Below are positions 7,581 through 26,410 of a stretch of 64,000 nt of DNA, piece after piece. Below the pieces are notes generated by a model. That model saw nothing but the letters and a program-made list of their open reading frames with translations, was not told the origin of the DNA and made no database searches. The translations under genes and the position numbers were made by a program. Each line of letters begins with the position of its first letter. Position 1 is the stretch's first letter. Source of the DNA: Anaeroplasmataceae bacterium (GTDB taxonomy: Bacteria; Bacillota_I; Bacilli_A; Acholeplasmatales; Anaeroplasmataceae); contig JAIDZC010000018.1 in NCBI GenBank assembly GCA_029057785.1, positions 1 to 64,000 on the forward strand, given 5' to 3'.

Positions 7581-7667
7581 ATAGAGCAAGGTAAGTTAAG
7601 ATAGACATAAATGATAGCTAGTTCAATACATAAAAGTGATTGCGGTTCTTTTTATGGGAGGTACATT

Positions 7668-10600
7668 ATGGCACTTTTTTCAATTGTCAAAAGAAAAAAT
7701 AAAAAAGTTAATAAGACTGAAAATATAGAAATTATTTCAAAAAATGAAGAACCTAAAGAGGTAAAACAAATTTTGTCTATCTATGATGAGTATGAAAAAA
7801 TTTTGGGACAAGATAGATTCATATCGAGAAAAGATATGTTATCTTTTTCTTTAAAGTATGAAGAAGATATAAAATTTCTATGTGAACTAGATAAAAGAGA
7901 ATTATTATTAGGTATTTGTAAAGACACTCCTTATGATGAAGTTAAGAATAAATTAAATATTTTAAGAAATATAGATGTGAATATTGAAAAAAGAAATCAT
8001 TATTATGTTGAAAATGAAAAGAATAAGTATAAGTCTTATTTTGATACGATTTTAAATTCATGTGATCCAAACATCTTATTAGATGATGATCAAAGAAATT
8101 GTATTGTTTATGATGAAGATTATTCTTTGGTAATTGCAGGTGCAGGTGCAGGTAAAACTACGACTATCGCTGCCAAGGTGAAATATTTAGTAGATAAAAA
8201 AGGAATACTTCCAGAGGAGATTTTAATTGTTTCATTCACTAATAAGGCAGTAGATGAGTTAAAGGAGAGAGTAAATAAGCAATTGAATATTTCCTGCCCA
8301 ATTACAACTTTTCATTCTGCGGGAATAGCTATAATAAAAAAAGACAAGCCAAATGAAAAAATCCAAGCTGTATCTGAAGGTTTTTTATATGTTGCAGTGA
8401 GAGATTATTTAAAGGATGGAATCAAAATGAATCCATCCTTGATAGATAAAGTGATACTTCTCTTTGGTACATATTTTGAAACTCCATTTCAAGAAGGTAG
8501 TTTAAAAGACTTCTTTACTTATTTATCAAGATCTGATTTTTCTACTATGAAAAGTAATTTAGGCGAATTTAATCAGCAAATAATTGATAAAAGAACTAAA
8601 AAACTTTATACAATTAATGATGAAAGAGTAAGATCTCAGCAAGAAGTACAGATAGCAAACTTTTTATATATAAATAATATTGACTATAAATATGAAGATT
8701 CATACGAATTTAATATGCAGAATAGTGATAAAATTTATACTCCTGATTTTCATATTTTTCAGAACAATTTAAATTATTACGTTGAACATTTTGCTTTATC
8801 ACAAAAAGGAGAAAACTCTAGGTTTACTGAATTTGAAATCCAAAAATATAAGAAAGCTATTAATGACAAAGTAAAACTTCATAGAGCTAAAGGGACAAAC
8901 CTCATATATACTTGGTCTAAATATAATGATGGCAGATCTCTTTTGGAGCATTTAGAAGAGGAACTATGTAAAGCAGGATTCGTTTTAAAAAGAAAATCGA
9001 CAGAAGAAATATTTGATAAGCTAAGTGCTAATGAGGAAAATAAATATATTGCTCCATTAATTAAACTTTTATGTTTATTTATTTCAAATTTTAAAGTTAA
9101 TGGATATAATGAATCTACATTTGCCAAAATGAAGAATGATATGGATAATGTTAGAACTAATCTATTTTTAGATTTAGCTTATGGTGCTTATCTTTTTTAT
9201 CAACAACGACTTTCTACAGCTAATAGAGTAGATTTTTCTGATATGATAAATGAGTCTGCTAGACTACTGCAACAGAAAAAGGAATTAAAAGAAAAATTAC
9301 CTTTTAAATATATAATAGTTGATGAATATCAAGATATTTCAAGGCAACGTTTTGACTTGACAAAAGCTTTGTCTGATGTATGTGATGCAAAAATTGTGGC
9401 GGTTGGGGATGACTGGCAATCTATTTATGCTTTTAGTGGCTCTGATATTACACTCTTTACGCAGTTTAAAGAAAAGATGGGTTATGCAAAAGAATTGAAA
9501 ATTGTAAAGACCTATCGTAATCCTCAAGAAGTGATAGATATAGCAGGTAATTTTGTACAAGAAAATACTTCACAAATAAAAAAGGAATTAATCTCTCCTA
9601 AGCATATTGATAAACCAGTGGTGATTTATTCATATAATGATGATTATCAAGACTTAAAAGAAAAAGGCTTTAAGAATGAGATGGAAGCTAGAGCCAAGAT
9701 GATTGAGGATGTAATAGGAAAAGTGGTATCTTATAATACAGTTGAGGGAAAATCTAAGAAATCATCTATTCTTTTAATTGGGCGATATAATTTTGATGCA
9801 CATAAATTAGGAAATACAAAATATTTTTGTTATGATGAAAATAAAAAAACTATAAGTTCAAATAAATATCCAAATGTCAATATTGAATTCTTAACAGCTC
9901 ATAGTTCAAAAGGACTAGGATATGATAACGTAATTATTATAAATGCAATAGATACTTTATTTGGGTTTCCAGCACAGTTAGAGATTGATCCAGTACTAAA
10001 ACTAGTTATACAAGAAGATTCTGCCATCGAATATGCTGAAGAGAGAAGATTGTTTTATGTTGCAATGACTAGAACCAAAAACAGAGTTTTTATAGTGGCA
10101 CCATCTACAAGACCATCTCAGTTTATTCTAGAGCTAAAAGAAAAATATTCAAAAGTTGAGCTTGTTGGTGAATTAAATCCTAAGTATAAATATATTAATA
10201 ATAAAATTTGTCCTATTTGTGGATATCCATTACAATTGAAATATAATCCAAATTATGGCTTGAGATTATATATGTGTACCAATGAACCGGAAATTTGTGA
10301 ATTTATGACAAACGACATTCATGGAGGTAAAATGGCGATTTGTAAATGTGACTCCTGTAAAGATGGTTATTTGATTGTTAAGCAAAGTAAAACAAATGCA
10401 TATTTTTTAGGATGTACCAACTATTATAGCATAAATTGTACTCGTCAAATTTCTAAAAGTGAATACTATAGAAAGCATAATTTAGTTGATAAAGAATTTG
10501 ATTTAAATGAGTTAATAAATAAGCAAGTCTCAATAAAGAATAATGATAATGAGACTCTAGCAATTCATGATAGTTGTGTTGAAGCAAAGACTGAAATTGA

Positions 10601-11054
10601 GCCAAAAGAAGCTACTATTGCAATAGATTTAAATGAGTTTCAAAAGTTTTATGATGCCTTGTTAGAATATAGAAATTTAAAAGCTAGTCGTCCAGGAAGA
10701 AGATTTTATGTTTTACCAGAAGAGATTATTTATACAATATACAAAGAAATGCCTTTAACAATTAAAGAACTTGCTAATATAAAAGGTATAGGCGAAATAA
10801 AGTTAGAGCGGTATGGAGAAGATTTGATTTCAATAATTAATAATCACTTGAATTTAAAAGAAATTCCAAGACCAATAGTATCTAGAGCCCAAGATAATAG
10901 AGAATTAATTGGAAACAAATGGACATCTTCTGAAGAAAAACAATTAATTGAAGAATTTTCTCATGGGATGAAAATGCCAGAAATTGCAAAGATTCATTCT
11001 AGAACAACAGGCGGAATTAGAGCAAGATTGAAGAAATTAGGTGTTATTGAATAA
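7668..11054 (+). CDS. UvrD-like SF1 helicase with inserted PD-(D/E)xK-like nuclease, Zn fingers, HRDC-like domain, C-terminal HTH-like domain
   Basis: GAGAGKTTT, YIIVDEYQDIS, VGDDWQSIYAFSGSD, LTAHSSKGLGYDNVII; insertion RSQQEVQIANFL...YTPDFHIF...YYVEHFAL; CPICGYPLQLKYNPNYGLRLYMCTN; GGAGG RBS before ATG 7668. Confidence 0.85.
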   Translation: MALFSIVKRKNKKVNKTENIEIISKNEEPKEVKQILSIYDEYEKILGQDRFISRKDMLSFSLKYEEDIKFLCELDKRELLLGICKDTPYDEVKNKLNILRNIDVNIEKRNHYYVENEKNKYKSYFDTILNSCDPNILLDDDQRNCIVYDEDYSLVIAGAGAGKTTTIAAKVKYLVDKKGILPEEILIVSFTNKAVDELKERVNKQLNISCPITTFHSAGIAIIKKDKPNEKIQAVSEGFLYVAVRDYLKDGIKMNPSLIDKVILLFGTYFETPFQEGSLKDFFTYLSRSDFSTMKSNLGEFNQQIIDKRTKKLYTINDERVRSQQEVQIANFLYINNIDYKYEDSYEFNMQNSDKIYTPDFHIFQNNLNYYVEHFALSQKGENSRFTEFEIQKYKKAINDKVKLHRAKGTNLIYTWSKYNDGRSLLEHLEEELCKAGFVLKRKSTEEIFDKLSANEENKYIAPLIKLLCLFISNFKVNGYNESTFAKMKNDMDNVRTNLFLDLAYGAYLFYQQRLSTANRVDFSDMINESARLLQQKKELKEKLPFKYIIVDEYQDISRQRFDLTKALSDVCDAKIVAVGDDWQSIYAFSGSDITLFTQFKEKMGYAKELKIVKTYRNPQEVIDIAGNFVQENTSQIKKELISPKHIDKPVVIYSYNDDYQDLKEKGFKNEMEARAKMIEDVIGKVVSYNTVEGKSKKSSILLIGRYNFDAHKLGNTKYFCYDENKKTISSNKYPNVNIEFLTAHSSKGLGYDNVIIINAIDTLFGFPAQLEIDPVLKLVIQEDSAIEYAEERRLFYVAMTRTKNRVFIVAPSTRPSQFILELKEKYSKVELVGELNPKYKYINNKICPICGYPLQLKYNPNYGLRLYMCTNEPEICEFMTNDIHGGKMAICKCDSCKDGYLIVKQSKTNAYFLGCTNYYSINCTRQISKSEYYRKHNLVDKEFDLNELINKQVSIKNNDNETLAIHDSCVEAKTEIEPKEATIAIDLNEFQKFYDALLEYRNLKASRPGRRFYVLPEEIIYTIYKEMPLTIKELANIKGIGEIKLERYGEDLISIINNHLNLKEIPRPIVSRAQDNRELIGNKWTSSEEKQLIEEFSHGMKMPEIAKIHSRTTGGIRARLKKLGVIE

Positions 11055-12355: not shown

Positions 12356-12500
12356 ATAATATTTATAGTGAAGTTTAGTTTTGTTTATTTAGCTAAAGAA
12401 AATTTAAGCGAAATAATGAAAGATCAATTGAATTTACATTAATTGGCTTGTTAAGCGGTTCTATGCGTGATATTTGCAATATAAAAATGAAAATAAAATC

Positions 12501-12640
12501 TTGCTTTTTGTAAAAAAAAGTGTAAAATATAACTGCACAACGTAAATACTAAGGGGTGTATAATCCTTCGTTGTGCAAAACTATAGGAATACACCCTGCA
12601 GATTTTTTTCACATGTTTATTGACATGTGTTTTTTTTGTG
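12501..12640 (+). ncRNA. Putative small RNA (RNA1) with its own promoter, H-type pseudoknot potential and terminator
   Basis: TTGCTT (12501-12506)/TAAAAT (12523-12528); tgcacaacg 12534-12542 with cgttgtgca 12569-12577; gggtgtat 12554-12561 with atacaccc 12589-12596; terminator cacatgt-ttattg-acatgtg-T8. Confidence 0.55.
12610..12639 (+). terminator. Terminator of RNA1, overlapping the helicase promoter
   Basis: CACATGT TTATTG ACATGTG TTTTTTTT; TTGACA -35 lies in the loop/3' arm. Confidence 0.7.
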
Positions 12641-12647
12641 TTATAAT
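12620..12647 (+). promoter_or_regulatory. Promoter of the helicase-HNH cassette
   Basis: TTGACA (12620-12625), 16 nt, TATAAT (12642-12647). Confidence 0.75.
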
Positions 12648-12880
12648 AAATATGCACAACGAAGGTAACCACGTTTGGTTCCACCCCAAAAAGGTTTGTT
12701 ATAAATAATATAGCAAGTCTGAGTAGGTTTTGTATTCCTATAGGTACAAGAGAATATTGTACTTATAAAAAGATTAGAGAGACTATGTTTAATATTTTAA
12801 TGCGCGCAAAGTAGAATTTTTTAATATTTTTATTTTGTTCAATTTTTTCTTGCCAAATTTGATAAAATGGAGGAGATAAT

Positions 12881-15388
12881 ATGGATGTCAAATTGAAATT
12901 AAATCATTTTTCTGATCTTTCTGAAGAATCACTTTATTATATACAAAGTGTAAGAATGTTAGGAAATAGGTTTGTTAAGATTACTACTAATGAATTAAAA
13001 GTACAATATGATAAAAAGGATAATAGACTTATCAGATCCATAGACAATCTAAAATTGATTTATGAATTAGAGCATGGATGCTTATTATTATTGGGTAATT
13101 TAGGTTGTACTTTTAGAGATGGCTTTAAAGGAGAATTTTTCTGTAAGAAGGTCATAATAGAAGAAAATACTAATTTTATGGATATTAGAGGTGCAGAGGC
13201 ATATATTGATTTTTCAGATCCTTTAAATGCAATCTCTAATGATGATTTTTATGAGGAATTGGAAGAACTTAAAAACAATCCAGATTTAGTTTATAATATT
13301 GGTCAATTTGATGAGTTTATGGAATTGTTTCAGTTTTATAAGAGTTTATCAAGTGAATTAAGCAATAATATTTCTTATGAGATAAGTCGCATTTCAAAAG
13401 AGTATTGCTTTATTTCTATAAATGAAAAGGATTTTGATTTAGAGTATAAAGAAGAAGTGCTTGATAATAACAATGTATTAATAGGCTATAGATTTGAAGA
13501 GTATCAATATGAGCAACTAAAAAACGATTTAAAGGACAAGGTTTCTTTTCTATTTGACATTGAAATAAAAGGAGATAGTGAAGCATTTAGAAAAATCAAA
13601 AGTATAGGTTTAGAAAATATTTATTTATCAGAGTTTAAAGTCATTACTGAAAAAGAAATATCTAAGATTGTTCAGGTTCAAATTTATAATTTATATTGTA
13701 CAAAGGATAAAATCATTATATCTGGAGAATTGAAAAACAATGATTTAAAAGAATTCACTTTCCTTAATTTGTATGATATGGGACAGAAAATCAAAGTGGA
13801 ATCTATTGACAATTCTTTAAAATTGATTAAACAGGGAGCAACTGGATCTGCAAGTGAGTTATTAAGATATTTAATCGGAGATGAACTAATGCCCAATCAT
13901 CCACGTCATACTAATCGAAACATGGAAAAATATATGGATGGATTAAATGAATCCCAAAGACAAGCATTTTTAATGGCTATAGATGGTTCTCCAGTAAGCT
14001 TAATCAAAGGACCTCCTGGAACTGGAAAAACGCATGTTATAAATGCAATTGTTCAGTATATTACAAAAGAACTAGAAGAAAAAGTTATTATTTCTTCTCA
14101 AACTCATATTGCTATTGATAATGTTTTGGATAAATTGATGAGTAATAGTGATGCGATTATACCAAATCGTATAACAAACAGAAAAAATAAATATAGTGGT
14201 TCGGAAATTGATAAAACATTATATAGAACATGGGGACTTAGTTTTTTTGAACATAATAAAAAAGCTTCTAATTCATCCTTGGCTTCTAAAATCGCTTCTG
14301 ATATTAATAATTTTAAAGGCGAACCGAAGTTTATCTATTCTTTAGAAACAGAACCATCTGAATATTCAGTGATTGGTGCAACAACAACTACAAGTGCAAT
14401 TGCAGGGAAAAAGGGACTTGAAGTATTAAGAGGATATAATTGGCTGATCATTGATGAGGTTTCTAAGTGTCCAATTACAGAAGTATTAAGATATTTGCCC
14501 TATGTAGAAAAAATCATTATGGTGGGCGATGATTTCCAATTGGCTCCATTATTGGAGTTTACAAAAGAGGAAGTAGAGAATTTACCTTCATATGATGAAG
14601 ATTTATTTGAAAAGCTTAAGAGCATGTATGAAAATTCTGTTTTTGCAAAAACATTAGAAAAAGCAAAAAAGTGCAATCGTGTGGTTCAATTAAATGAAAA
14701 TTATCGTTCTGTAAAAGATGTTTTAGAATTATATAATGTATTTTATAATGGTTCTTTGATAGGAAGAAGAGAAGAAATCAATCCATTAAAAGTAGAGATT
14801 AATTCAAAACGTTTAAAACCAGAATGTGATGTCTTTTTTGTTGAAGTCAAGAATGGCAAAGAAGTTTTAGAGGGAACTTCGCGATATAACATAGAAGAAA
14901 TCAATGCAACAAGAGATATTTTGAAAGAATTAGTTGAAACGACTGTAAATCCAGAAAAAGTTTCTATTGCAGCAATATTTCCTTATGCAGCTCAAATTAG
15001 TAAATTTCATAAATTAAACATTGATTTAATCAATAAAGCTAAACAAGTATTTAAATCATTTGAAATTGATACAGTGGATGCATTTCAAGGGAAAGAAGCC
15101 GACATTGTTTTATGTAATACAGTCGTTGCTGATGCCACAAAGAGAAATTTCCTTAATGATTTTAGAAGAATCAATGTATCTATGTCTCGTGCAAAAGATA
15201 AGTTGATTGTTTTTGGTAATAGCATAATACTATCCAAAATAGAAATGAGCATATTAGGAGGACCTAAAAGAAGATTCTTTAAGGATATTATTGATTATAT
15301 AAAGTCTCATAATGGGAACATAACTTATGATGGAGGAATTCGAGATGAAATTACAAGCAAAACTACAATTAAATTTGCAAAGTATTAG
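12881..15388 (+). CDS. SF1 (Upf1/DNA2-like AAA_11/AAA_12) helicase
   Basis: GPPGTGKTHVINAI, WLIIDEVSKCP, MVGDDFQLAP, VDAFQGKEADIVLCNTV, RRINVSMSRAKDKLIVFGN. Confidence 0.88.
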   Translation: MDVKLKLNHFSDLSEESLYYIQSVRMLGNRFVKITTNELKVQYDKKDNRLIRSIDNLKLIYELEHGCLLLLGNLGCTFRDGFKGEFFCKKVIIEENTNFMDIRGAEAYIDFSDPLNAISNDDFYEELEELKNNPDLVYNIGQFDEFMELFQFYKSLSSELSNNISYEISRISKEYCFISINEKDFDLEYKEEVLDNNNVLIGYRFEEYQYEQLKNDLKDKVSFLFDIEIKGDSEAFRKIKSIGLENIYLSEFKVITEKEISKIVQVQIYNLYCTKDKIIISGELKNNDLKEFTFLNLYDMGQKIKVESIDNSLKLIKQGATGSASELLRYLIGDELMPNHPRHTNRNMEKYMDGLNESQRQAFLMAIDGSPVSLIKGPPGTGKTHVINAIVQYITKELEEKVIISSQTHIAIDNVLDKLMSNSDAIIPNRITNRKNKYSGSEIDKTLYRTWGLSFFEHNKKASNSSLASKIASDINNFKGEPKFIYSLETEPSEYSVIGATTTTSAIAGKKGLEVLRGYNWLIIDEVSKCPITEVLRYLPYVEKIIMVGDDFQLAPLLEFTKEEVENLPSYDEDLFEKLKSMYENSVFAKTLEKAKKCNRVVQLNENYRSVKDVLELYNVFYNGSLIGRREEINPLKVEINSKRLKPECDVFFVEVKNGKEVLEGTSRYNIEEINATRDILKELVETTVNPEKVSIAAIFPYAAQISKFHKLNIDLINKAKQVFKSFEIDTVDAFQGKEADIVLCNTVVADATKRNFLNDFRRINVSMSRAKDKLIVFGNSIILSKIEMSILGGPKRRFFKDIIDYIKSHNGNITYDGGIRDEITSKTTIKFAKY

Positions 15389-16775
15389 TAATACCATTGT
15401 AGTATCTTATAACACATATGAAAAAGCATCTTTTGATCAATACTTGGCTGTCTCTGTTGTAAGCAACACCTCCATAACAAGCCGAGCAGAAAAATATATT
15501 GATGATATTACTGGTAAAGGAAGCTTAAACGCTCATTTTAAAAAAATGATTCAACGAGCTCAAAAATTTGATGATGATACAAAACGGAAAATATTAGATA
15601 GTTCTTTATATCCAACTGTAAAAATTGACAAATCAAATCATTATACGTATTATCCAGATTTTAATGTTTCGATTTTTAATAAAAGGCATTTCAAGGGAGA
15701 TTTGAAAAAAAAATCTCAAGAAGATATGCAAAAAATTTTATTAATGGATGAAGATGTTATAGATATTGATTATGATAAGAAAGAACATTTTCAAAAGGAT
15801 ATGTATTTGGTAGAATTCGATGATTTTAAAATCAAAATAAACCTATTTAATGAGTGGTATGAGTTGAAAGATTCAAGATTTCAAGATTTAATATCTTATG
15901 ATATAGAAGGAATAGAAAGATATGAGGGTAGTGTATCCACTGATGCTGATGGGGAAGGATGGGTAATTCTAAGTAATAGTGCATTAAACAATTTAATCAA
16001 TATGTCGCATTTCTTTTATAATAGAGAAGGAAATCACATAGGGATTTTGACTGATTATTTAAAATTAACAAAAATAATTAAAGTTTATGGCTTATATTTT
16101 TATAAAGAAAAAATATGCTCATTTGACAAAAAAAATTCTGAATTATGTAATGAAACTTTAAAGTATTTAATAAAAACAAATTCAATAAATGAGATTAAAA
16201 CTAAAACGTTATTGAAAATATTAGAAGTAGTGGAAAATATTTCATCTCAACAAGTAATCAATTATATTTTGGATAGAAAAGAATCAAAGGAGTTAGCACT
16301 TTTTGGATTGTCCCTATTGAAGAAAGGATTAGAGATAGGTTGGACAAATACTACTTTAAAACAGTTTAAAGCATTTTGTTCTATGAATGATTTGAACACT
16401 CTTTACAGAGTTGCTCCGGAGATTGGATATAGTCCAATAGAACTAACGAAAATAGATGATAATTTGTTGAATGAACAAGACAAAATTATCAAAGAAGAAT
16501 ATTTAAATAATAGGAACAAAATGATTGATGAAATCGATAGGAAGGTTGGAGCAATTACAAACTCAGGAATTCGTGAGCGTGCGAAAAAAGTAAATTCATC
16601 CGAATTTACAAAAAAATTTAATAACAAACTTAAAACAATGCTTGCCCATAAGAAAGACGACATAAAAAACTATTCGGATGATAAACTTAAGAATTATTAC
16701 GAAGAAGTAGTAGTTTTTTATGAAGACTATGTACAGATGGAAGACATAATAAAACTATATGAAGAAAGGAAGTAA
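15345..16775 (+). CDS. Hypothetical protein, overlapping the helicase C-terminus
   Basis: GGAGG RBS then ATG 15345, 44-nt overlap with the helicase stop; no family recognised. Confidence 0.75.
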   Translation: MKLQAKLQLNLQSISNTIVVSYNTYEKASFDQYLAVSVVSNTSITSRAEKYIDDITGKGSLNAHFKKMIQRAQKFDDDTKRKILDSSLYPTVKIDKSNHYTYYPDFNVSIFNKRHFKGDLKKKSQEDMQKILLMDEDVIDIDYDKKEHFQKDMYLVEFDDFKIKINLFNEWYELKDSRFQDLISYDIEGIERYEGSVSTDADGEGWVILSNSALNNLINMSHFFYNREGNHIGILTDYLKLTKIIKVYGLYFYKEKICSFDKKNSELCNETLKYLIKTNSINEIKTKTLLKILEVVENISSQQVINYILDRKESKELALFGLSLLKKGLEIGWTNTTLKQFKAFCSMNDLNTLYRVAPEIGYSPIELTKIDDNLLNEQDKIIKEEYLNNRNKMIDEIDRKVGAITNSGIRERAKKVNSSEFTKKFNNKLKTMLAHKKDDIKNYSDDKLKNYYEEVVVFYEDYVQMEDIIKLYEERK

Positions 16776-16780
16776 TTGAA

Positions 16781-17092
16781 ATGTCAAAATACACAACAAT
16801 TGAAATTTGGAATGAAGTTTATGGGAATAAAGAGGATGTATATGATTATGCAGGTAGATTGATGAAAAAATCCGCTTGTGGCAATCCTGATAGCAAGTAT
16901 CATCCAACATTAGACCATATTAGACCTATATCTAAGGGAGGTAAAGATATAAAAGGAAATCTTAAAATATGTCACACACTTACCAATGAAGAAAAAGATG
17001 ATGATTTCCCTCATTGGACGGCTAATGGTAAAAAATTTAAAGCCAAAAAGAAAGATGGAGAATCAGGTTCTTATATTGTTGTACCAAATTAA
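16781..17092 (+). CDS. HNH endonuclease
   Basis: TLDHIRPISKGGKDIKGNLKICHTLTNEEK. Confidence 0.85.
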   Translation: MSKYTTIEIWNEVYGNKEDVYDYAGRLMKKSACGNPDSKYHPTLDHIRPISKGGKDIKGNLKICHTLTNEEKDDDFPHWTANGKKFKAKKKDGESGSYIVVPN

Positions 17093-19201: not shown

Positions 19202-21094
19202 ATGGATAATACATGGAGATTCCCAGGGAATGGATATACACAGGATCAGGGTTTAGATACCTCAGATATGGAAACATTCAAAAAGGATCCTATTGCATCC
19301 TTAGCCAGAGAGCTTTGTCAGAATTCTATAGATGCTAGAATGAAAACAGCTAAGGGGCCTGTTCGAATTGAATTCAAATCCTTTTCTATAAAAAGAGAAG
19401 AAATTCCACAGGTTAATCTGATTGAAAAACAAATCTTGGCATGTAGAGAAACATGGGAAAACAATCAAAAAATATCTGATCAGCTAGAAAAAATGGTTGA
19501 GCAAATCAAGAAAGAAAAAATTTCCTGTCTTAGAATCAGTGATTTTAACACTAAAGGTCTTGTCGGTGTAAGTGGTGGAGATAATACACCATGGCATTAT
19601 ATGATTCATGGTTCAGGCTTATCCAATAAATCTGCTACTAGTGGTGGTTCTAAGGGTATTGGTAAATTCGCAACCTTTGTCACTTCTTACTTTCATACAG
19701 TCTTTTATTCTACAGTAACAGAAGCAAAAGAAAAAGGCTATCAAGGAATATGTAAGCTTTGTTCTGCAAAACAGGAAGGAACTACAGAAAAAACAATTGG
19801 TATAGGATATTTTGGTTCCTCTATTAAAAATGAACCCATTTCAGGGGAATTCAACTTGGATAAGGGATTTAAAAGAGGCGGAAAGACAGGAACAGATATC
19901 TTTATTTTAGGCTTTAAGAATCCATCTAGCTGGAAGGCAGATATTATATCTAAGATTTTGGAAAGCTTTATCAGTGCCATTATTTTTGGTGATTTAGAAA
20001 TCATTGTAGATGATATCAACCTAAATAAAGAGAATCTTAAAAATATTGTTTATAATGAAAGTCTTATTAATAAATCCAGCAGAAGATCCATTATCTCTCA
20101 GTATCTTTTACTTACAGATACTGAACATAGATTTGAGGATACAATTGATTTCAAAGAATTAGGAAAAGCTAAATTATACTTAATGGAATTTAATAGTGAA
20201 AATGAACATCTCGCAACAAATGGATGTGTTATGATTCGATATCCGTTAATGAAGATTCGTGATATTGAAAAAATAACAACTCTGCCTTGTAGTGCGATGT
20301 GTATCATAGAAGATAATAAATTAAACGCTATTTTAAGAAGTATAGAAAACCCACAGCATACGAACTGGGAATTTAATCGTATTGAAGAAGATGCCAAGCG
20401 AGCAGAAGTCAGAGGGATTTATAAACAGTTATTAGATGAAATAAGAAATTTAATTTCTGGTCATCTCGCATCCAGTGATAGCTTTCAAACTGAGGTTGCA
20501 GGGGCTGGAAATTTCATTCCCGGTATGGATGATGAAGAGAAGAATGCAGATCTTCAAAAAGGAATTCTAGATACACCTAGTATTACAACTAAGAAAGTAA
20601 AATCCAGTGATCTTAAATTAAAAGCTTATGTAGCTGATGAAGAAGGCGATGAGGAAATAGAGGTAGAAGATGAAGAAGAATTCTTAAAAGAATTAGAGGG
20701 GCATCAAAGAGCCTCAGGGGGTATTTCTAAGTCTGGAAATGGAGAAAGAAAGGACAATCTATTTGGAGGAACGCATAAAATAAAGGTTTCCGAGCTAAAA
20801 GGTATGTCTTATCGATTGATGTGTATCAATAAAAAGTTACGTATGTATGCAGTCGTATTTACATCTGATTTTGAGGAAAAAGATGCAATGCTAGAATTAT
20901 ATGCATTAGATGACAGCGGTACAAAATCACAAGTACTTATAATGGCTGGTACAATTAATGGGCAACAGGCTCAAATCATAAATAGAAAAAGAATCAAGTT
21001 TTCTATGAGAAAGAATCAAAAAATCAAAATAGAAATGATTACAGACCAAACAGAATTATTTAGTAGTGAGGTAAGAGTATATGCGTATAGGTAA
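19202..21094 (+). CDS. GHKL-family ATPase (large, uncharacterised)
   Basis: LARELCQNSIDARM (N box), LRISDFNTKGL (G1), GGSKGIGKFATF (G2); acidic linker EEGDEEIEVEDEEEF. Confidence 0.75.
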   Translation: MDNTWRFPGNGYTQDQGLDTSDMETFKKDPIASLARELCQNSIDARMKTAKGPVRIEFKSFSIKREEIPQVNLIEKQILACRETWENNQKISDQLEKMVEQIKKEKISCLRISDFNTKGLVGVSGGDNTPWHYMIHGSGLSNKSATSGGSKGIGKFATFVTSYFHTVFYSTVTEAKEKGYQGICKLCSAKQEGTTEKTIGIGYFGSSIKNEPISGEFNLDKGFKRGGKTGTDIFILGFKNPSSWKADIISKILESFISAIIFGDLEIIVDDINLNKENLKNIVYNESLINKSSRRSIISQYLLLTDTEHRFEDTIDFKELGKAKLYLMEFNSENEHLATNGCVMIRYPLMKIRDIEKITTLPCSAMCIIEDNKLNAILRSIENPQHTNWEFNRIEEDAKRAEVRGIYKQLLDEIRNLISGHLASSDSFQTEVAGAGNFIPGMDDEEKNADLQKGILDTPSITTKKVKSSDLKLKAYVADEEGDEEIEVEDEEEFLKELEGHQRASGGISKSGNGERKDNLFGGTHKIKVSELKGMSYRLMCINKKLRMYAVVFTSDFEEKDAMLELYALDDSGTKSQVLIMAGTINGQQAQIINRKRIKFSMRKNQKIKIEMITDQTELFSSEVRVYAYR

Positions 21095-26275: not shown

Positions 26276-26410
26276 ACATTATGTCCATAAAGAGAAGATG
26301 AGAGACAAGCTCTGTGACTCTTCAGCAACCTTTTCAGTAAGGTGCTAATGCTTGTATGATGGCGATAAAATGTAATTGATTTCAAAAGCCATCATTACGA
26401 TGGTTTTTAT
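26276..26410 (+). promoter_or_regulatory. SAM-I-type riboswitch with terminator/antiterminator
   Basis: AGAGAAGATGAGAGACAAGCTCTGTGACTCTTCAGCAACCTTTTCAGTAAGGTGCTAATGCTTG...GATAAAA; ATGATGGC (antiterminator arm) complements GCCATCAT of the GCCATC/GATGGT-T5 terminator. Confidence 0.75.

Follow-up and report, generated by a model that had tools for sequence, protein, structure and literature searches.

Organization of the locus

We analysed a stretch of 64,000 nt, here called the window, from an Anaeroplasmataceae bacterium (positions 1-64,000 of the forward strand of contig JAIDZC010000018.1, assembly GCA_029057785.1). Upstream of genes for an SF1 helicase and a 482-aa orphan protein, p482, it carries a predicted small RNA (RNA1) and the structured leader of the operon mRNA (RNA2), each with its own promoter (Table 1). 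A first-pass annotation had located here two copies of a 9-mer, two complementary pairs of 13-nt segments, a GGGGTG/CACCCC match and the arms of a pseudoknot, and all of these coordinates proved correct.

Table 1. Features of the RNA1-RNA2 region and the downstream operon (positions in the window).
Feature	Position	Strand	Remarks
P1, promoter of RNA1, TTGCTT-16-TAAAAT	12501-12528	+	8/12 in the window (weak)
RNA1, small RNA with its own intrinsic terminator	12534 to ~12637 (end of T-run)	+	Predicted transcript
RNA1 segment a, TGCACAACG	12534-12542	+	Self-fold partner 12569-12577; duplicates RNA2 5' end
RNA1 segment b	12553-12561	+	Partner 12589-12596 (pseudoknot) or RNA2 12682-12687
RNA1 segment c	12565-12577	+	13-nt pairing with RNA2 12653-12665
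RNA1 segment d	12581-12593	+	13-nt pairing with RNA2 12731-12743
RNA1 segment e, ATACACCC	12589-12596	+	3' arm of pseudoknot; overlaps d
RNA1 intrinsic terminator	12610-12637	+	Found in 13/13 loci tested
P2, promoter of operon mRNA, TTGACA-16-TATAAT	12620-12647	+	12/12 sigma-70 match; -35 overlaps terminator
RNA2, structured leader of operon mRNA	12653-12880	+	Ends at helicase start codon (12881)
RNA2 segment a'	12653-12665	+	Target for RNA1 c; copy of a, then AAGG
RNA2 stem A, AACCA/TGGTT	12667-12680	+	9 distinct fully paired arm sequences in 14 loci
RNA2 segment f, CACCCC	12682-12687	+	Partner of RNA1 b, or final CC with GG of GAGTAGG
RNA2 core, AAAAAGG-stem B-TCTGAGTAGG	12688-12727	+	Sequence near-invariant
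RNA2 segment d'	12731-12743	+	Target for RNA1 d; missing from group 2 loci
RNA2 hairpin C	12744-12762	+	3' of d'
SF1 (UPF1/DNA2-like) helicase, core gene	12881-15388	+	MkoA-like in helicase domain only; IGHMBP2-like
p482, 482-aa orphan protein, core gene	15327-16775	+	Overlaps helicase end
Small HNH protein, accessory	16781-17092	+	Not conserved at homologous loci

RNA1 is made up, in order, of segment a, a loop, b (GGGTG), c (CCTT followed by the complement of a), d, e (CACCC) and the terminator. Alone, it could fold as an H-type pseudoknot with arms 12534-12542/12569-12577 (a:c) and 12554-12561/12589-12596 (b:e), in which the first four nucleotides of c, CCTT, are unpaired. The fold energy of the RNA1 region was better than that of shuffled sequences (z = -3.8). 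Direct repeats near RNA1 were limited to the promoter and S1 copies, with TGCACAACG present at 12534-12542 and 12653-12661, and the pseudoknot unit was single. The terminator reads CACATGTT-TATT-GACATGTG (12610-12629) followed by T8, and the -35 element of the second promoter (TTGACA, 12620-12625) was found within its loop and 3' arm, as had been proposed; the TATAAT element lies at 12642-12647.

RNA2 runs from a' through stem A, f (CACCC), AAAAAGG, stem B and TCTGAGTAGG to d' and hairpin C. The fold of the leader alone was unremarkable against shuffles (z = -1.5), and only some leaders showed a U-rich terminator, either just behind stem B or more distally. When the RNA1 sites were blocked in silico, leaders folded free and bound by RNA1 showed no consistent change at the Shine-Dalgarno sequence or the start codon. 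A leaderless peptide read by eye inside RNA2 was discarded, its frame not being conserved. Rfam returned no family above its gathering cut-off; identity with the best match, tsr26 (23.6 bits versus 141), was rejected, as the score is far under threshold and the similarity falls mostly over promoter and terminator. The literature search found no paper describing the RNA1-RNA2 pair. Judged by Rfam and the literature searched, the pair is a conserved one not described before.

The operon and its neighbours

The HNH protein and a 54-aa micropeptide had been counted as members of the system, an assignment that we do not follow since neither is conserved; the core is the helicase plus p482. The predicted structure of p482 was confident (mean pLDDT 88), and a Foldseek search with the model found nothing under E 0.1 in PDB or BFVD; the protein possibly has a new fold arrangement. 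A sequence search of PDB gave no relatives of p482, nor any informative match to the CARF-like protein described below. p482 was absent from the phage and plasmid records searched, the helicase had no match in plasmids, and neither protein, nor the RNA2 core pattern, matched viral contigs.

The first gene 3' of RNA2 is the helicase in the window and in L024, and a protein of 115-461 aa at the other loci. Viperin is encoded in L034 (7051-7905; NF038283, E 1e-71, above cut-off) and a homologue in L029 (895-1752), preceded in both RNA-bearing operons by a 151-aa protein. A gene of the 151-aa family comes first after RNA2 in L057/L063, L064 and L065 (reverse strand), with an apparent ATT, ATC or ATA start; such starts resemble infC and hint at initiation-level control. 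Other variable neighbours were DEDDh exonucleases and ThiC-like proteins, and a ThiC-like radical SAM protein also adjoins the CARF-type operon in L017 (2482-3639) and L036 (10778-11923; Pfam 6.8e-94 in L036). A Cas9 gene lies shortly downstream of the helicase-p482 operon in the Mollicute L063 (reverse strand, ~6865). Elsewhere in the window, a 630-aa protein (19202-21094) matched PDC-M33A, a candidate defence model of PADLOC (1.4e-142), and 7611-11054 encodes a large UvrD helicase, so that the window resembles a defence island; a SAM riboswitch (Rfam RF00162) lies at 26282-26365. The viperin, CARF and WYL neighbours, together with a patchy spread over phyla, suggest that the helicase-p482 operon is probably a mobile antiviral defence.

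Distribution of the RNA pair

Homologous operons were reached through p482, and helicase alignment led to 28 loci in genome contigs, the relatives being mostly metagenome-assembled genomes (L005, L006 and L007 duplicate L013, L034 and L029, respectively). The layout RNA1-terminator-promoter-RNA2 recurs at 14 other loci of Bacillota and Mycoplasmatota, 15 with the window. Both RNAs lie upstream of the operon in L013, L034, L014, L018, L021, L023, L025, L026, L035 and L038, and they are also present in Mycoplasma testudinis (L024) and three more Mollicutes (L057, identical to L063; L064; L065). At the 15 loci both promoters are retained and the two RNAs are 115-149 nt apart on one strand. P1 scored 7-12/12 at the 14 other loci, and the means for the two promoters were 9.9 and 10.5 of 12, versus 6.8 at random control places. 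One locus, L029, has RNA2, and RNA1 was found neither upstream nor elsewhere in this incomplete genome. R1/R2 matches in G605 and G1113 (both E near 1e-3) were rejected as chance; the former falls inside a protease gene and the motif is absent from the latter.

Pairing between RNA1 and RNA2

In the window, segments c and d are exact reverse complements of a' and d', and GGGGTG in b (12553-12558) is complementary to f. Such matches might be due to chance or be the relic of an inverted duplication, as the region is AT-rich and short matches are common in it. In the 247 bases from 12534 to 12780, however, at least one perfect inverted match of at least 13 nt arose in 3 of 3,000 dinucleotide shuffles and at least two in none of 3,000, which bears out the view of the first-pass annotation that the two 13-nt matches are not accidental. 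The same annotation had proposed looking for compensatory changes at homologous loci, a test that could have overturned the switch hypothesis; we ran it on elements aligned by hand at nine group-1 loci (and also in a seven-locus version), and the hypothesis survived. The c:a' helix was paired in 115/117 cells with two-sided changes at 8/13 positions, and d:d' in 107/117 cells with changes at 9/13, so that, across the nine diverged loci, 17 of the 26 positions in the two RNA1:RNA2 helices carry two-sided compensatory changes. The self-stem a:c of RNA1 was paired in 79/81 cells, with two-sided changes at 7/9 positions. Pairing was lost when partners were swapped between loci: the observed level was reached in 4 of 200,000 permutations for c:a', none of 200,000 for d:d' and 4 of 200,000 for a:c, figures that are not strict probabilities because the loci share ancestry, and among which a few ties are expected because certain loci have identical S1. 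Stem B, within RNA2, occurs as ten arm pairs, all paired save one position in L024. Two-sided changes so numerous appear to have no other ready explanation than kept pairing; they refute an origin by chance or duplication, whose probability we put at practically nil, and we regard the pairing of RNA1 with RNA2 as virtually certain.

The third contact, b:f, is constant within group 1, altered as a unit in group 2 (L021, L023, L025, L026, L035 and L038) and broken in L014. In group 2, whose rows are near copies of each other, c, b, a' and f have a different sequence but remain complementary to their partners. These loci lack d:d', and in them the loop of RNA1 complements that of stem A. Complexes of RNA1 with RNA2 were 13-25 kcal/mol better than the separate RNAs at 15/15 loci, and duplex energies were strongest inside a kin group. 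The joint fold places c with a' and b with f around stem A as a three-way junction, to which group 1 adds d with d'.

Exchange with CARF-sigma and WYL regulators

Not all helicase-p482 operons carry the RNAs. RNA2 was found at 16 loci, versus a CARF-sigma or WYL regulator at 10 others, and the two kinds occurred together at none. In L015, L016, L017, L019, L020, L028, L031 and L036, a stand-alone CARF2 protein (PADLOC, E 1.9e-78) and then a weakly sigma-70-like protein (E 2e-4) lie directly upstream of helicase-p482, a possible candidate, judging from gene order and profile matches, for a CARF-driven sigma switch outside type III CRISPR. A WYL regulator (E 7e-10) was identified by Pfam in L012 and a look-alike by eye in L030. 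Whole-genome searches with the RNA2 model covered 12 RNA-bearing genomes and 16 others, ten of which have CARF or WYL. A single copy came up in 11 of the 12, the weak match in L024 being missed genome-wide and coming from local search only, and no copy in any of the 16. Placing the RNA label on the helicase tree takes four changes; the WYL pair groups as sister to the window, and group 2 falls inside a clade containing CARF loci. As the RNAs are exchangeable with known regulators, they are most simply regulators themselves. This exchange of RNA, CARF-sigma and WYL on one gene pair constitutes a natural experiment.

A proposed two-RNA switch and its alternatives

The small RNA or conformational switch tied to the operon, as envisaged in the first-pass annotation, is strongly supported by its 15 loci, by compensation both in trans and in the self-fold, and by two promoters with a terminator between them. 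That it gates expression is also made plausible by the position of RNA2 in the 5' leader and by the replacement of the RNAs by CARF-sigma or WYL proteins at homologous operons. We consider it likely that the operon is regulated by RNA1 and RNA2, and somewhat likely that this control is repression. Our preferred reading, held with moderate confidence, is that the two form a dedicated switch for the helicase-p482 operon in which RNA1 acts in trans as an antisense RNA, probably repressively. RNA1 would be made continuously and fold as the H-type pseudoknot. The self-fold leaves the first four bases of c unpaired, and these could therefore act as a toehold: through this CCTT (CCCT in group 2) RNA1 would invade the operon mRNA at its 5' end, while the b:f and d:d' contacts would reshape the leader around stem A and the AAAAAGG...GAGUAGG element. 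The complex would lower operon output, perhaps, though we are less sure here, through cleavage by a duplex RNase or loss of ribosome or polymerase passage. With RNA1 lost or held closed, for example on transcription shut-off in infection, the defence genes might rise, a step of which we are likewise less sure. The RNA pair would fill the role of the CARF-sigma or WYL regulators of sister operons. Points that weigh against this reading are the inconsistent folding effect at the ribosome-binding site, the RNA2 of L029 with no RNA1 found beside it, the invariance of b:f in group 1 and its break in L014, the lack of d:d' in group 2 and the weak P1 of the window. Whether the pair itself is the infection sensor is a more tentative matter: an RNA-only two-state device, alternating between the RNA1 pseudoknot and the RNA1:RNA2 complex, may conceivably read a ligand, a nuclease or a phage-caused shut-off of transcription in place of CARF or WYL protein sensing, a proposal that we find possible but doubtful.

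RNA1 could instead be an activator, with b:f preventing an RNA2 hairpin (f-stem B-GAGUAGG) that stops transcription or translation. A terminator-like hairpin with a U-run is a candidate in the window, L023, L025 and L026, and in the RNAalifold structure the CC of f is joined to the final GG. The U-run is nevertheless absent after the hairpin at six loci (L013, L014, L018, L034, L057 and L064), so what is conserved is not a terminator, and L029 retains the operon without RNA1; we judge activation unlikely. Cis action, by contrast, would have a single long transcript from P1 run past the terminator as a riboswitch, trans pairing being secondary. The close spacing of the two RNAs on one strand means that read-through would join them, but every locus has a second promoter, with a start at the second S1 copy, and keeps the terminator between, which makes this account very improbable.

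The RNA pair might also belong to the working machinery of helicase and p482, as a bipartite scaffold or guide like tracrRNA:crRNA, much as the first-pass annotation had suggested in naming it a possible functional component of the helicase/HNH machinery. The dual-RNA geometry, three-way junction and invariant single-stranded motifs, with their potential for protein binding, fit this idea, and the RNA follows the core genes rather than any single accessory gene. Against it, RNA2 was found neither nearby nor elsewhere in the genome for ten helicase-p482 operons, eight of CARF type and two of WYL type, and no variable guide-like segment or repeat array was seen. We disfavour a machine component, and rate it as improbable, because the helicase-p482 pair also occurs without the RNAs. 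The regulatory switch is the reading that we retain, and because some relatives have a known protein sensor at the position of the RNAs, it looks like a new RNA-based control of bacterial immunity. If the RNAs do the job of ligand-sensing proteins, bacterial immunity has an RNA route to the decision on when to act. With viperin and CARF among its associates, the helicase-p482 pair is itself a candidate defence system, and its p482 is without a known fold match.

Comparison with known systems

The closest parallels are type I toxin-antitoxin systems (IstR-1/tisB, OrzO/zorO, OhsC/shoB and AgrB/dinQ), in which a small RNA likewise lies beside its target (PMC4147584, PMC11264685). Type I small RNAs use short stretches to pair with a 5' UTR that is long and structured, well upstream of the start codon, and in zor/orz the pairing segments differ among copies while pairing is retained (PMC4147584, PMC11264685). 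The antitoxins are, however, divergent and the target peptide is typically <60 aa (PMC4147584, PMC11264685), whereas RNA1 is in tandem with its target, has up to three pairing sites and a conserved pseudoknot alternative, and faces an operon for a helicase and a large orphan protein. RNA1 is complementary to the 5' UTR of its target mRNA; this target is no small hydrophobic toxic peptide, and because of this the pair stands outside the type I family. In timP/TimR, mutually exclusive mRNA conformations and a pseudoknot also govern small RNA pairing (PMC11228461), but the pseudoknot is in the mRNA there and in the small RNA here.

ToxIN, a type III system acting in phage defence, shares the order of pseudoknot small RNA, terminator and protein gene; ToxI consists of tandem repeats and binds the toxin protein (PMC4147584), whereas RNA1 pairs with RNA. 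Tandem pseudoknot repeats of ~36 nt are absent from the locus, and scans with Pfam, PADLOC and NCBIfam found no ToxN-family endoribonuclease downstream. Unlike CRISPR dual RNAs, the pair has no cas effector among the scanned operon proteins and no repeat-spacer array in 12360-12900; the Cas9 gene of L063 is the only one near a relative. The helicase domain has MkoA of Mokosh (MkoA/MkoC) as its closest PADLOC match (E 9e-74), but the profile matched only at 517-1102 of 1112, p482 is present with no PLD nuclease match, and the operon thus differs from full-length MkoA/MkoC with a PLD partner or domain. The CARF and WYL defence regulators sit where the RNA pair does, upstream of helicase-p482 in sister operons; they are proteins thought to sense ligands (PMC4012209), and here that place is taken by two RNAs.
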